Shown here piece by piece: positions 30,903-64,000 of a DNA stretch of 64,000 nt. The stretch's first letter is position 1. Each line of letters opens with the position of its first letter. The notes under the pieces were generated by a model that was not told the origin of the DNA, did not search any database, and saw only the letters and a list, made by a program, of their open reading frames with translations. Source of the stretch: Oscillospiraceae bacterium (GTDB lineage: Bacteria; Bacillota; Clostridia; Oscillospirales; Acutalibacteraceae); assembly GCA_902762875.1 (NCBI GenBank), contig CACWPS010000006.1, positions 48,665-112,664 on the forward strand, written 5' to 3'. The position numbers and the translations under genes are program-made.

Positions 30903-31673
30903 ATGAAAAAAATCACAAAAATCGTAAGCGTTTTAGCCGCTTTGGCTATCGCTGTTCTCTGCTGCGGCTGCGGCAGTAAGTCTATGACCGCTCAAGAGGG
31001 CAAACTTATTATGGCTACCAATGCCGAGTTCCCGCCCTATGAGTACAAAGAGGGCGACGCTATCGTAGGTATCGACGCAGAGGTTGCAAAGCTTATTGCT
31101 GAAAAGTTAAACCTTGAGCTTGATAGGAATCGGAGAAGTTGACCTTTTCCTTTCTCTCATCGGTAACGGTCATACCCGCCATACCCATATCGTATTTACC
31201 TGACTGAACGCCCGGAATGATAGAGTCGAAATCAACATCGGCGCTATGCTACAGGCGTTCAGGTTGTAATCGTTAAGGAAGACAGCGATATTAAATCTAT
31301 TGACGATTTAGAGGGTAAGAAAATCGGCGCTCAGCAGGGTACAACAGGTTACATTTATGCTTCCGACTCTGTTGAAAACGGCGGCTATGGTGAAGAAAAT
31401 GTAACAGGTTATCAGAACGGCGCACTCGCTGTTGAGGCTTTAAAGGGCGGCAAGGTTGACTGCGTTATTATTGATAACGAGCCCGCAAAGGCTTATGTTG
31501 CCGCAAACGAGGGTCTTAAGATTCTTGACACCGAATATGTAACCGAGGATTACGCAATCTGCTTCGCAAAGGAAAACACCGAGCTTCAGACCAAGGTAAA
31601 CGATGCGCTTAAGGCACTTATTGAAGACGGTTCTGTTAAAAAGGTTGTTGACAAATACATTAAAGCTGACTAA
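30903..31673 (+). pseudogene. Amino-acid ABC transporter substrate-binding lipoprotein, interrupted by an internal inversion
   Basis: The frame starts MKKITKIVSVLAALAIAVLC with a lipobox-like Cys and continues with KLIMATNAEFPPYEYKEG and IVGIDAEVAKLIAEKLNLELD, the lobe-1 start of a family 3 solute-binding protein. It breaks at about 31127. The end, from VQVVIVKEDSDIKSIDDLEGKK (about 31255) to VVDKYIKAD (stop 31671-31673), is intact and in the same frame. The missing middle (DVDFDSIIPGVQSGKYDMG, AGMTVTDERKEKVNFSDSY) is present on the opposite strand. Flipping 31123-31247 back restores an uninterrupted 256-aa protein without any other change. As read, only 79 residues are made. A hairpin and permease and ATPase genes follow. 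Confidence 0.85.
31123..31247. other. Inverted 125-bp segment inside the binding-protein gene
   Basis: The segment is bounded by ATAG (31123-31126) and its complement CTAT (31244-31247). The core at 31127-31243 is 117 bp, a multiple of three. Reverse-complementing it rebuilds codons for LDSADVDFDSIIPG at the left junction and NFSDSYATGVQVV at the right. No longer inverted repeat is visible at the borders. Confidence 0.85.
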
Positions 31674-31738: not shown

Positions 31739-32494
31739 TTGACTGGCATAATTAACGCTGTTTCAGGCTGGTTCAGCTCCCTTGCGGACGAGTTCAAGTT
31801 CGTCTTTATCGAGGGCAACCGCTACGAACAACTGATAACCGGCTTTGTAAATACACTTAAGATTACCTTCGGCGCATTGCTTATAGGTATTGCAATAGGT
31901 ATAATCGTTGCCGCCGTGCGCTCTACATACGATAAAAACCGTGACAAAATGCGCCAGCACAAGGGTATAGGATATTTTATACTCTCGTTTTTAAATGCAG
32001 TTTGCAAGCTCTATTTAACGGTTATCCGAGGCACCCCTGTTGTCGTTCAGCTTATGATTTCATATTTCCTTATCTTTGTCTCGGTAAGGGACGGCGTACC
32101 CATAGGCATTTTCGCTTTCGGTATAAATTCGGGCGCATATGTTGCGGAAATCTTCCGAGGCGGAATTATGGCGGTGGATAACGGACAGTTTGAGGCGGGG
32201 CGTTCTTTGGGACTTAACTATGTTCAGACTATGATACATATTGTTATTCCCCAAATGTTTAAAACCGTACTCCCCACCCTCTGCAACGAGTTTATAGCCC
32301 TTTTAAAGGAAACCTCGGTTGCGGGCTATGTAGGCGTTGTAGACCTTACCAAGGCGGGCAACTCCATAGCGGGCCGCACCTACTCCTACTTCCTGCCCCT
32401 TATCACCGTAGCGGCTATTTATCTTGTAATAGTTATGGTTTTAACCTGGCTTGTAGGAAAGCTTGAAAGGAGGCTGCGTACCAGTGACCACTAA
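31739..32494 (+). CDS. Polar amino-acid ABC transporter permease
   Basis: A 251-aa inner membrane subunit of the HisM/GlnP type. It has about five helices, [17 protein letters not shown], and the cytoplasmic EAA loop [23 protein letters not shown] through to [16 protein letters not shown], which docks on the ATPase. It starts at TTG 31739, eight bases after AAAGGAG; the ATG just upstream is out of frame and stops at once. ARG-type boxes upstream point to arginine or another basic amino acid as substrate (inference). Confidence 0.92.
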
Positions 32495-33224
32495 TGAAGT
32501 GCTTATAAAAACCGAAAATTTGCAAAAAGCTTTTGGCAAAATTGAGGTTTTAAAGGGTATTGATACCGAGATTAAAAAGGGCGAGGTTGTGGTTATAATC
32601 GGACCCTCCGGCTCGGGAAAATCCACCTTTTTGCGCACCCTCAATCTCCTTGAAGAGCCCACAGGCGGGCATATTTATTTTGAGGGAACGGATATTACCG
32701 ACCCTAAAGTAAACATAAATGTTCACCGCCAAAAGATGGGAATGGTTTTCCAGCAGTTCAACCTTTTTCCCAATATGACGGTGCTTAAGAATATGACAAT
32801 AGCTCCCGTAAAGCTTAAAAAAGCCACCAAGGCCGAGGCCGAGGAACGAGCACTCTCATTACTTGACCGTGTAGGTCTTAAGGACAGGGCTAATGCCTAT
32901 CCCTCACAGCTGTCAGGCGGTCAAAAGCAGAGGGTCGCAATAGTCCGTGCACTTTGTATGCAACCCGATGTAATGCTTTTTGACGAGCCCACATCTGCCC
33001 TCGACCCCGAAATGGTAGGCGAGGTGCTTGATGTTATGAAAGCCCTTGCAAACGAAGGTATGACAATGGCGGTTGTAACCCACGAAATGGGATTTGCAAA
33101 AGAGGTTGCAGACCGAGTGCTCTTTATCGACCAAGGTATTATTATGGAAGAGGGCACACCCGAAGAAGTCTTCGGCAATCCCAAAAGCCCGAGACTTCAG
33201 GACTTCTTAAGCAAGGTTATATAA
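32484..33224 (+). CDS. Polar amino-acid ABC transporter ATP-binding protein
   Basis: The 246-aa ATPase that powers the transporter. Walker A is [12 protein letters not shown], the Q loop [13 protein letters not shown], the signature [15 protein letters not shown], Walker [14 protein letters not shown] and the H loop [15 protein letters not shown], as in GlnQ/ArtP/HisP. I chose GTG 32484, about ten bases after AAAGGAGG; it overlaps the permease end by eleven bases. The gene is intact although the binding-protein gene is broken, so the complex would lack its receptor in the orientation seen here. Confidence 0.93.
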
Positions 33225-40545: not shown

Positions 40546-41832
40546 TTATGCTGTTAAACTGCAAAACACGGCGGTTATATCAACATCACTATGGTCGAAT
40601 ACCTTTTCCGTCTCATTAAAATTAACCGGCTTTTCCGGTATCACTTCTTCCATATATTCTTTCAGCTCGGCAACTCCGTCCGTAATGATTTCCCGGTTAT
40701 CAACATAAATATCTGCCGTAACGATTTCTTTTGCGTGACCGAGTATTTTTGAAATTGCCTTTAAGTTGAAATCGTTTTTCATAAGAAGCGTTGCATAACT
40801 GTGTCGCAAATCGTGCCATCTTATATTAGGCAAACCGCTTTTTTTCAGAACTTCTTTAAAAGGTTCAAAATGGTATTGCATACTGCGCGGTCGACCGTAG
40901 CTCGAACAGCATATATAATTCAGGTCTTGAAATTTTTTGCTTCTTCTGTTTTTATTTTTCTCATATTGGTTTCGGGACCTTAATATCTCCTCAAAAACAA
41001 AATCCGGTATATCAAGCACTCTGTCGCTGGATTGTGTTTTCAGTTTAATCTCCTGTTTAGTCTTTGTTTTAGGAGCAAATATAACATCATCTGAATTTGC
41101 CGCTCTGCCCAATTGCCTTGCAACATGAAGCTTTTGTCGCACAAAATCAACATCGCTGTATTTCAGCCCATTAATTTCACCTCTTCTCAAGCCCATAAGC
41201 ACCGCGAAAAGCACCTGCATATAAATCCCGGTACCTCGGCTTGCATTTATCAGTATAACGATTTGCTCTAAATTCAGCGTGTTGCTTTCCTTTATCAATC
41301 TTGTATGATAAGCATTTTTCGCCACATTTTTAGGCAATGGGATGTCCGCCGCAGGGCTTTCGGAAATCAACCCTTTGTTTACTGCATATCTCATAGATGT
41401 GTTCATTATATTTTTGACGATTTGTGCCATCCTGTGCGACTTTTCCGCAATAGCAATATACATATTTTTTATGTGTACTCGCATAAGGTCTGTCAAGTAC
41501 ATTTTGCCTAAAATCGGCAGAATATGATTTTTTATTGCATTTTTATAGGAAGAATAGGTGTTGGCTGTTGTCCTAGGCTTTATATCTGTTTCAAGCCATT
41601 CCGTTAGAAAGCTTGATACCGATTGCTTTTTCTGAACGATAAATGTCTTCGTAACAAGCTGTGCGATTATCTTTTCTTTTTCGCTGTTTGCGTCTTTTTT
41701 AGAGTCAAAGCCTGAAAACTGCCGTATTTCTTCTGTCCCGTCATCAAAACGCAACAACACTCGAAAACCATACTTGTTTTTAACCTTTATTATATTATAG
41801 ACATTATGTTCGGCTATGTTTTTCATCTCCAT
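40546..41832 (-). CDS. Tyrosine recombinase/integrase (second of a tandem pair)
   Basis: A 428-aa phage-type integrase. It has an N-terminal arm-binding-like domain (about 15-55), a SAM-like core-binding domain (about 70-170: VSSFLTEWLETDIKPRTTANTY) and the catalytic domain with Arg in LMGLRRGEINGL, HxxR in WHDLRHSYATLLM, His in KILGHAKEIVTADIY, where the Y is the nucleophile. A C-terminal extension of about 50 residues (VIPEKPVNFNETEKVF) follows. Its ATG overlaps the stop of the upstream integrase by one base, so both are made together. The two proteins are related in layout but clearly different in sequence. Confidence 0.93.
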   Translation of the reverse strand: MEMKNIAEHNVYNIIKVKNKYGFRVLLRFDDGTEEIRQFSGFDSKKDANSEKEKIIAQLVTKTFIVQKKQSVSSFLTEWLETDIKPRTTANTYSSYKNAIKNHILPILGKMYLTDLMRVHIKNMYIAIAEKSHRMAQIVKNIMNTSMRYAVNKGLISESPAADIPLPKNVAKNAYHTRLIKESNTLNLEQIVILINASRGTGIYMQVLFAVLMGLRRGEINGLKYSDVDFVRQKLHVARQLGRAANSDDVIFAPKTKTKQEIKLKTQSSDRVLDIPDFVFEEILRSRNQYEKNKNRRSKKFQDLNYICCSSYGRPRSMQYHFEPFKEVLKKSGLPNIRWHDLRHSYATLLMKNDFNLKAISKILGHAKEIVTADIYVDNREIITDGVAELKEYMEEVIPEKPVNFNETEKVFDHSDVDITAVFCSLTA

Positions 41833-43058
41833 CAGTCAGCTTCCTCCTCGGGAATAAATGTGTTATCCATGAACGCTTTAATGTTATTGCTTTCATCGGA
41901 TATGTCGCAATAGTATTCAAAGGTCGTGTTTATTGAACTATGCCCCAATAATGCAGATATTTTTGATAGGCTCGCACCATTTTCAATCAGTATAGTAGCA
42001 TACATATGTCGCAATCCATGAACTGTTATCGAAGGAAGAGCGGATTTTTTGCAGAGTTTATTCAACGCAATATTAAAAGCACTCATACTGTGCGGATTTC
42101 CGTTTTCCTGGCAGCTTATATAATCAAAATCATTATACTTGTCCTTAAACTTCGCCTTGTTATTTTCTATCCGTTCTTTTCGGTATTTCAGCTCGTCGAT
42201 GATCACTTTCGGGACTCGTAGCTTACGAAGACTGTTAGGAGTTTTCGGAGGTCTTTCGGTCAATTCATATTTCAAGATTTTACTTCCGCTGCCGGAAGGG
42301 ATTATCGGATTTGCGGTAAGCTGACGTTTGATTGTAACTGTTTCATCTTCTAAATTAAAATCCTCGAACTTTAATCCTAAAATTTCACCTTTTCTAAGTC
42401 CGCAAAACAGAGCCAGCAAAATTTCCAAATACCATGAATTCTCTTTGGCATACAGTAGGAATTGCTTAACCTGCGCCTTGTTATATATAGTGATATTCGG
42501 CTTGTTTCGCTTATAAGGTTTTGTTGAGGGCATCGGATTAGATTTAATATATCCCTCTACAAGCGCATGATTAAAAGCAATACTTAATACTTCGCGGCAT
42601 TTGTTGCCGGCTGTCGGCGAACTAAGGGAGCACTGACGCAGTAGAGCGTCCAGATAATCAACATTTACAAGCGTAAGCTTTATCTCATTTTGAATGTTTG
42701 GCAGAATAATATCATATATCATATGCGCCATAACCATTCTTGTTGTGTTTTGAACATTCGGAGAAAATTCATCTTCAAACCAAACTTTTAGATAATCGCC
42801 AAGAGTAATCGTACCGTAGTTTTTAACTTCTCTTGACATACGGCTTTTTTCAAATGCTTCAAGGCATTTCCAGTAGTTTTCCTCAGCTTCTTTTTGCGAG
42901 GCAAATCCGCCTTTCTTGCCATATTTTATTTTTCCTGTATCATCAAGCGTTTTTGTCCGGTGATACCATGAACCGCGTTCAAAAAAAGCCACGCTGTGCT
43001 TCTTGGGTTTGCGATTGGAAATGCTTTCTTTAAGTTTGTAATTCTCGTAAGACTTCAT
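41832..43058 (-). CDS. Tyrosine recombinase/integrase (first of a tandem pair)
   Basis: A 408-aa integrase. It opens with the AP2-like arm domain (SVAFFERGSWYHRTKTLDDTGK, GGFASQKEAEENYWKC), followed by a SAM-like domain (TLGDYLKVWFEDEFSP) and a catalytic domain with Arg in FCGLRKGEILGL, HxxR in VHGLRHMYATILI, His in ALLGHSSINTTFEYY and Tyr there. It overlaps the excisionase-like gene by four bases. Such integrase-excisionase pairs move integrative elements; here a second integrase gene follows directly. Confidence 0.93.
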   Translation of the reverse strand: MKSYENYKLKESISNRKPKKHSVAFFERGSWYHRTKTLDDTGKIKYGKKGGFASQKEAEENYWKCLEAFEKSRMSREVKNYGTITLGDYLKVWFEDEFSPNVQNTTRMVMAHMIYDIILPNIQNEIKLTLVNVDYLDALLRQCSLSSPTAGNKCREVLSIAFNHALVEGYIKSNPMPSTKPYKRNKPNITIYNKAQVKQFLLYAKENSWYLEILLALFCGLRKGEILGLKFEDFNLEDETVTIKRQLTANPIIPSGSGSKILKYELTERPPKTPNSLRKLRVPKVIIDELKYRKERIENNKAKFKDKYNDFDYISCQENGNPHSMSAFNIALNKLCKKSALPSITVHGLRHMYATILIENGASLSKISALLGHSSINTTFEYYCDISDESNNIKAFMDNTFIPEEEAD

Positions 43059-43526: not shown

Positions 43527-44072
43527 CTATATAACGTCAAAAATTCCGTGTTTTATGCATAGTTTTCTGATAATTTTCTTGATTTTATTTTCGGCACCGG
43601 ATATTGAACGTGAAATTGTACTCTGACAGACTCCTTCTTCTTTTGCAATATCCTCTTCCTTTTTACCGTCAATATAGTGACTTAAGAATCTTCTTAATTG
43701 AATGTCTGAAAGTTCCTCCCGCGCTATGCGCAAAATGAATTGAGCGCTCATTATTTCCATCTTGAAAATGTCTTCTTCACTTATCGACTGAACAAACTCC
43801 GTTTCTGCCGACTCCACCGATACAAGCTGCGTTTCTTCTATATCGCCGATCGAAACATTCATACGCGTGATTTCGTTGGATTTTCTGTCTTCCTCCTTAT
43901 AAAGCTCGTCCGACAGTGATTTCCAATAATCAAAGTCTGCTTCAGTCATATTTGGATTCTCCTGTAAAAACCCTTCCACGGTGATTTCGTAATTACCGTC
44001 TACCCCTCTGTATACAATTCCTTTTCTGTACTTATTTATTGCATAGTGTTCTTTTGTGTAGTTTTTAGACAT
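43527..44072 (-). CDS. Sigma-70 region 4-like regulator of a mobile element
   Basis: A 181-aa protein whose C-terminal 70 residues form a sigma region 4-like helix-turn-helix (LSDIQLRRFLSHYIDGKKEE followed by DIAKEEGVCQSTISRSI). The acidic N-terminal part has YRKGIVYRGVDGNYEITVEGFL. Proteins of this kind are common in Tn916/Tn1549-like elements, where they are thought to regulate excision or transfer genes. I chose the ATG at 44072, because AAGGAGATT precedes it. That site is sequestered in a hairpin (44078-44134) and lies downstream of a leader peptide, so translation is probably conditional. It is the likely activator of the excisionase and integrase genes that follow (inference). Confidence 0.8.
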   Translation of the reverse strand: MSKNYTKEHYAINKYRKGIVYRGVDGNYEITVEGFLQENPNMTEADFDYWKSLSDELYKEEDRKSNEITRMNVSIGDIEETQLVSVESAETEFVQSISEEDIFKMEIMSAQFILRIAREELSDIQLRRFLSHYIDGKKEEDIAKEEGVCQSTISRSISGAENKIKKIIRKLCIKHGIFDVI

Positions 44073-44077
44073 AATTG

Positions 44078-44134
44078 TAATCTCCTTAAAATTGAATTTT
44101 TGAATATGATTTGAAATCAAAAATTCGGAGATTA
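44078..44134 (-). promoter_or_regulatory. Translational attenuator: hairpin sequestering the SD of the sigma-like gene
   Basis: On the minus strand TAATCTCC and GAATTTTTGA (44134-44117) pair perfectly with TCAAAAATTC (44103-44094) and GGAGATTA (44085-44078): 18 bp in total, with an 8-nt bulge on one side and a 13-nt loop. GGAG is the ribosome binding site of the sigma-like gene. The first arm starts with the leader-peptide stop codon TAA, so a ribosome at that stop would open the hairpin. Confidence 0.75.
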
Positions 44135-63959: not shown

Positions 63960-64000
63960 ATAATCTTCCCCCTACTCTTTCTTAGATTTGTAAAATCTAA

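Follow-up and report, generated by a model that had tools for sequence, protein, structure and literature searches.

A recent 125-bp inversion within the amino-acid binding-protein gene of an Oscillospiraceae bacterium, possibly a product of crosswise rejoined staggered breaks

In the Oscillospiraceae bacterium studied here, an uncultured one from the gut, a segment of 125 bases in the middle of the gene for an amino-acid receptor is reversed and breaks this gene. We give even chances to the reading that a single recent illegitimate microinversion, in which staggered breaks were rejoined crosswise, destroyed this binding-protein gene of an ABC transporter.

The broken gene and its transporter

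The gene was found in a stretch of 64,000 nucleotides (the window, to which positions refer) that corresponds to contig 6, bases 48665-112664, in a draft genome (1.69 Mb in 22 contigs, 97.55% complete). Position 64000 of the window coincides exactly with the end of contig 6.

The gene encoding the solute-binding protein (SBP_bac_3) of an amino-acid ABC transporter lies at 30903..31673 on the forward strand. Unflipped, it contains four in-frame stops (codons 80, 88, 106 and 107), and the predicted product is a stump of 79 residues. Reverse complementation of 31123..31247 yields 256 codons free of stops, encoding an amino-acid binding protein. This segment carries codons 74-115 on the reverse strand and includes both 4-bp arms, i.e. 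ATAG at the left end (31123..31126, forward strand) and CTAT at the right end (31244..31247, forward strand), which enclose an inverted core of 117 bp (31127..31243, reverse strand). Furthermore, the PF00497 (SBP_bac_3) profile matched three pieces of the gene, each above the cut-off, with the middle piece on the minus strand. The intragenic inversion described in the initial annotation is thereby confirmed. It is precise, as claimed there, and also length-neutral, the gene having the same length as in the nearest relative seen (771 nt in both).

The permease (BPD_transp_1; 31739..32494) and the GlnQ-like ATP-binding subunit (32463..33224; under the equivalog cut-off) of the same transporter are encoded on the forward strand and are both intact. 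The flip thus leaves a transporter that is intact except for its receptor, as had been proposed. By our own reading, the stump starts like a signal sequence and contains a cysteine, as a lipoprotein does. The expected consequence would be a truncated lipoprotein of 79 amino acids and a transporter without its receptor. One other SBP_bac_3 gene is present in the genome (C9:61876-62526), so that some amino-acid uptake may remain.

Orientation in relatives and age of the inversion

The relatives compared are uncultured gut Clostridia belonging to other species than the host. Any match to the gene was obtained in 46 of 70 genomes of the genus, the host's own included. The N-terminal, middle and C-terminal pieces of the protein were each located in the 82 homologous loci fetched, a number that includes the same records fetched twice as well as distant homologues. 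The segment had the normal orientation in 77 of them (52 distinct segment sequences) and the inverted orientation in none, and five loci were uninformative as they were without an informative middle piece. At DNA level (blastn), relatives with matches to both the segment and the flank showed them on opposite strands; where only the segment matched, e.g. in G073, G027 and G063, the orientation is not judgeable. The inverted left junction had no match in viral contigs. The inverted state is thus common to none of the relatives in which the orientation was compared, and judged by every informative locus fetched, all of which have the other orientation, the orientation in the host is the derived one.

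The nearest relative seen is G090 (locus L061, corresponding to L021, CAMCIX010000097.1), with 85% DNA identity to the host over 2.4 kb and 92.6% protein identity in the binding-protein gene. With the segment set in its normal direction, 16 of its 125 sites differ from G090; 0, 1 and 15 of these differences fall on codon positions 1, 2 and 3, respectively. The corresponding values for the flanks are 9, 3 and 21 over 220 bases and 4, 4 and 43 over 426 bases. The differences within the segment were accepted during the time when it was still coding, which places the flip after almost all of the divergence from G090. Judged by this predominance of third codon positions, the inversion is recent, in line with the initial annotation.

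Origin of the 4-bp repeat

Only two amino-acid replacements distinguish the 42 codons of the segment from G090. They fall on codons 74 and 75, both overlapped by ATAG (GAT AGC in the flipped host gene, GAA ATT in G090); the chance of both replacements hitting these two codons is 1 in 861 (hand arithmetic). The left copy encodes Asp-Ser at a place where 15 of 16 close relatives have Glu-Ile. All 51 distinct homologous stretches have I, V or M as residue 75, and none has D as residue 74. The left four bases read AAAT in 29 and AGAT in 12 of 55 distinct homologues, but ATAG in none. Distinctness was counted by protein stretch for the 51 and by DNA stretch for the 55, and matches not spanning residues 60-125 were left out. 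Of the 17 homologues with an identity of 70% or more, 16 have GAA AT(C/T/A) and one has GTT ATT. Two loci (L066 and L068) read GAG CTT GAA ATC GCC GAT, from which the flipped gene differs at 2 of 18 bases, both within the left four. The right site is CTAT in G090 and in 12 of the 55 homologues (TTAT in 18), and the CTAT of the host ends in codon 115, which is Tyr in all 51 homologous stretches.

These comparisons modify two statements of the initial annotation. The sequence had been described as typical of the family across both joints, which does not hold for the left one: it reads LDSADVDF where a sequence like LEIADVDF is expected. Furthermore, no other mutation was said to have accumulated, whereas two of the four bases of the left ATAG (positions 31124 and 31126) differ from the ancestral AAAT, as inferred from other species and not from the host species itself.

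We strongly infer from the homologues, as the simplest history, that the ancestor carried AAAT at the left end of the segment and CTAT at its right end, without any 4-bp inverted repeat. As ATAG occurs at the left site in none of the distinct homologues, the ATAG/CTAT repeat was probably absent before the flip and is a product of the event, CTAT having been copied backwards over AAAT. The right CTAT would then be the ancestral site and the left ATAG its inverted copy.

Possible mechanisms and their meaning

The exchanged block comprises 3-4 bp. It would not be shorter than 3, given the changes at positions 31124 and 31126, nor longer than 4, since the adjoining bases differ; both limits depend on AAAT as the inferred ancestral state. 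The inferred microhomology between the two sites is 0-1 bp. Such a pattern would be expected from a pair of double-strand cuts, both staggered by 4 nt (or 3 nt) and separated by about 121 bp, that were rejoined crosswise with inversion of the segment. Equal staggers rejoined in this way leave the same overhang at both ends in opposite orientation and keep the length. The next round of replication would copy the strand with its 5' tails ATAG and CTAT and thereby produce a new, perfect 4-bp inverted repeat. Only two of the four bases changed, which allows a stagger of 3 or 4, the former needing one coincidence fewer, and one event cannot prove a mechanism.

Gyrase and topoisomerase IV are the bacterial enzymes that make reversible staggered breaks of 4 nt. 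The likeliest agent would be an exchange of subunits between two adjacent cleavage complexes of gyrase or topoisomerase IV, a suggestion that we make tentatively and with clearly less confidence than the crosswise rejoining itself. The cuts that gyrase makes in the two strands are offset by 4 bp inside a 130-bp motif (PMC6379681), and topoisomerase IV of pneumococci leaves a 4-bp overhang (PMC12217528). The distance of 121 bp between the two sites is about that of one gyrase footprint. Gyrase-mediated illegitimate recombination by interface swapping (PMC11164529) resembles the present case in that DNA is joined without homology and that 4-nt staggered cuts would leave exactly such a block at the ends. 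In the same text, micro-inversions by gyrase are a speculation and not an observation, and they are tied to fluoroquinolones. Quinolone-trapped cuts are described as favouring a G after the cut (PMC6379681). The bases after the inferred cuts are A on the left, C on the right and A on both bottom strands; with no G at these four positions nothing points to a drug, which bears on the drug-linked form only. Genome reports of a micro-inversion made by a topoisomerase were not found in open-access literature listings. The whole, a micro-inversion of 121 bp between two adjacent gyrase or topoisomerase IV breaks that is recognisable by a perfect 4-bp inverted repeat of its own making, might be a footprint that subunit exchange of type II topoisomerases left in nature, which we consider possible but marginally more doubtful than the choice of the agent.

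Alternatively, replication might have switched its template, or microhomology-mediated break-induced replication might have taken place; this is the main rival, although we regard it as rather unlikely. The polymerase would leave the left site, copy 120-121 bases of the opposite strand backwards from within CTAT and return at CTAT. This accounts for CTAT in both orientations as well as for the loss of AAAT, and one arm is indeed rewritten as a copy of the other, as template switching predicts. In yeast genes, template switching homogenises the arms of repeats and inverts the spacers between them (PMC8604942), and the host gene likewise has its spacer inverted and one arm turned into the reverse of the other. 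The yeast spacer inversions of that study occurred only with arms of more than 9 bp and changed 2-5 bases, whereas the present spacer measures 117 bp, pre-existing pairing arms are absent and the length is exactly kept. The comparison of spacers is weak, because selection in proteins favours short spacers according to the authors of the yeast study (PMC8604942). No imperfect inverted repeat that could have paired the two sites beforehand was found, as the inferred AAAT matches ATAG at two of four bases and the flanks do not match by eye. Microinversions between human and chimpanzee, for which microhomology break repair was proposed (PMC8755829), are length-neutral and have very short flanking repeats, too. 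They span 17-33 nt, and their repeats of 3-75 nt are taken as the cause, whereas the repeat described here looks like a consequence. Furthermore, the copied and the skipped lengths must match to the base, yet with so little inferred microhomology nothing seems to align the sites.

An artefact of assembly or library preparation, with the sample DNA being in normal orientation, is improbable. It would fit a draft in 22 contigs that is apparently a metagenome bin, and the complete lack of inverted loci among those fetched. The two junctions are clean, however, and there was no ancestral repeat to mis-join; by our reasoning, ATAG beside GAATC needs a real molecule. Mis-assembly through the repeat was therefore rejected. 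Besides the binding-protein gene, interior stops occurred in only 2 of the 435 proteins surveyed and a match broken into two pieces in 2 of 435, so the draft does not have the appearance of an error-ridden one. Interior stops were counted if they lay more than 60 residues into the protein and more than 15 from its end, and the binding-protein gene was one of three among the 435 well-matched proteins that exhibited them. A value of 40 interrupted genes out of 435 was discarded as too high, because stop-to-stop ORFs extend upstream of the genes. Two further genes in pieces of G000 (L185:12995-13354 and L146:8320-8643) have interior stops compared to their counterparts in the relative G025 and showed no inversion in the DNA and protein scans.

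In the DNA scan, in which 93 pieces of G000 and the window were compared with 60 pieces of G025 (1.06 Mb of G025; 491 kb of query aligned, i.e. about 0.49 Mb, overlaps included), the segment of the binding-protein gene was the sole candidate. Planted inversions were recovered in 50 of 293 cases at 50 bp, 150 of 304 at 125 bp (49%) and 173 of 305 at 300 bp, so that about half of the events of similar size would be missed. The protein scan of 888 ORFs of G025 yielded three candidates, the binding-protein gene and two others that we took as chance matches (37-38% identity, E 0.9-2.8). An all-against-all comparison of 84 loci and part of the window gave 116 matches of 25-51 bp not involving the binding-protein locus and none of at least 55 bp among them; they are taken as self-complementary hairpins such as terminators. 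As the DNA scan, at its 49% sensitivity for this size, yielded the binding-protein segment alone and the protein scan added nothing convincing, the idea of many such inversions throughout the genome was rejected. Together with the count of interior stops, the scans indicate neither a flipping system nor poor assembly. The initial annotation had argued from the shortness of the repeat for a one-off event or an artefact. The first part agrees with these scans; the second is unlikely in the light of the repeat that was not there to be mis-joined.

Recombinase-driven invertons have inverted repeats of about 10 bp or more for site recognition, and the crossover block measures 2 bp for serine and 6-8 bp for tyrosine recombinases. 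Intragenic invertons, in which part of a single gene is reversed and the product altered as it is here, were reportedly described by Chanin et al. in 2024. That a site-specific recombinase flips the segment and switches the receptor on and off, the reversible state considered in the initial annotation, is very improbable and was rejected, even with 9 resolvase-type and 11 integrase-type matches in the genome: the repeat is exactly 4 bp long at the ends and its left arm is not ancestral, the exchanged block (given the inferred AAAT) fits neither class of recombinase, no inverted locus was among the 82 fetched (five of them uninformative), and the two recombinases of the window score far below all listed NCBIfam cut-offs, also those that apply to DNA invertases. 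Flipping back at a useful rate would not be expected.

The two recombinases just mentioned (40546-43058, reverse strand) are tandem tyrosine recombinases of the phage-integrase type, one with SAM-like and central domains, the other with an arm-binding domain as well as a SAM-like match slightly below the cut-off. Together they suggest that a mobile element is integrated 9 kb downstream. The inverted repeats of at least 14 bp listed around them comprise 14 pairs with a spacing of up to 3 kb, all of them imperfect, and beside them lies an ORF of 197 codons (43527-44120, reverse strand) that appears sigma-factor-like by eye. Elsewhere, at G000:C1:13095-21290, four resolvase-domain matches in long ORFs lie within about 8 kb, perhaps a nest of integrated elements.

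A switch and an accident can be distinguished by comparing the end repeats with those of relatives. In the present case this comparison indicates that a repeat suggesting a recombination site was made by the event. If the topoisomerase footprint is real, part of the very short repeats at bacterial microinversions would be consequences and not causes, and this class of topoisomerase mutation would become measurable by searching whole genomes for 4-bp repeats that such events made. If the footprint is general, it would provide a sequence signature for the mutations that topoisomerases have been proposed to make.
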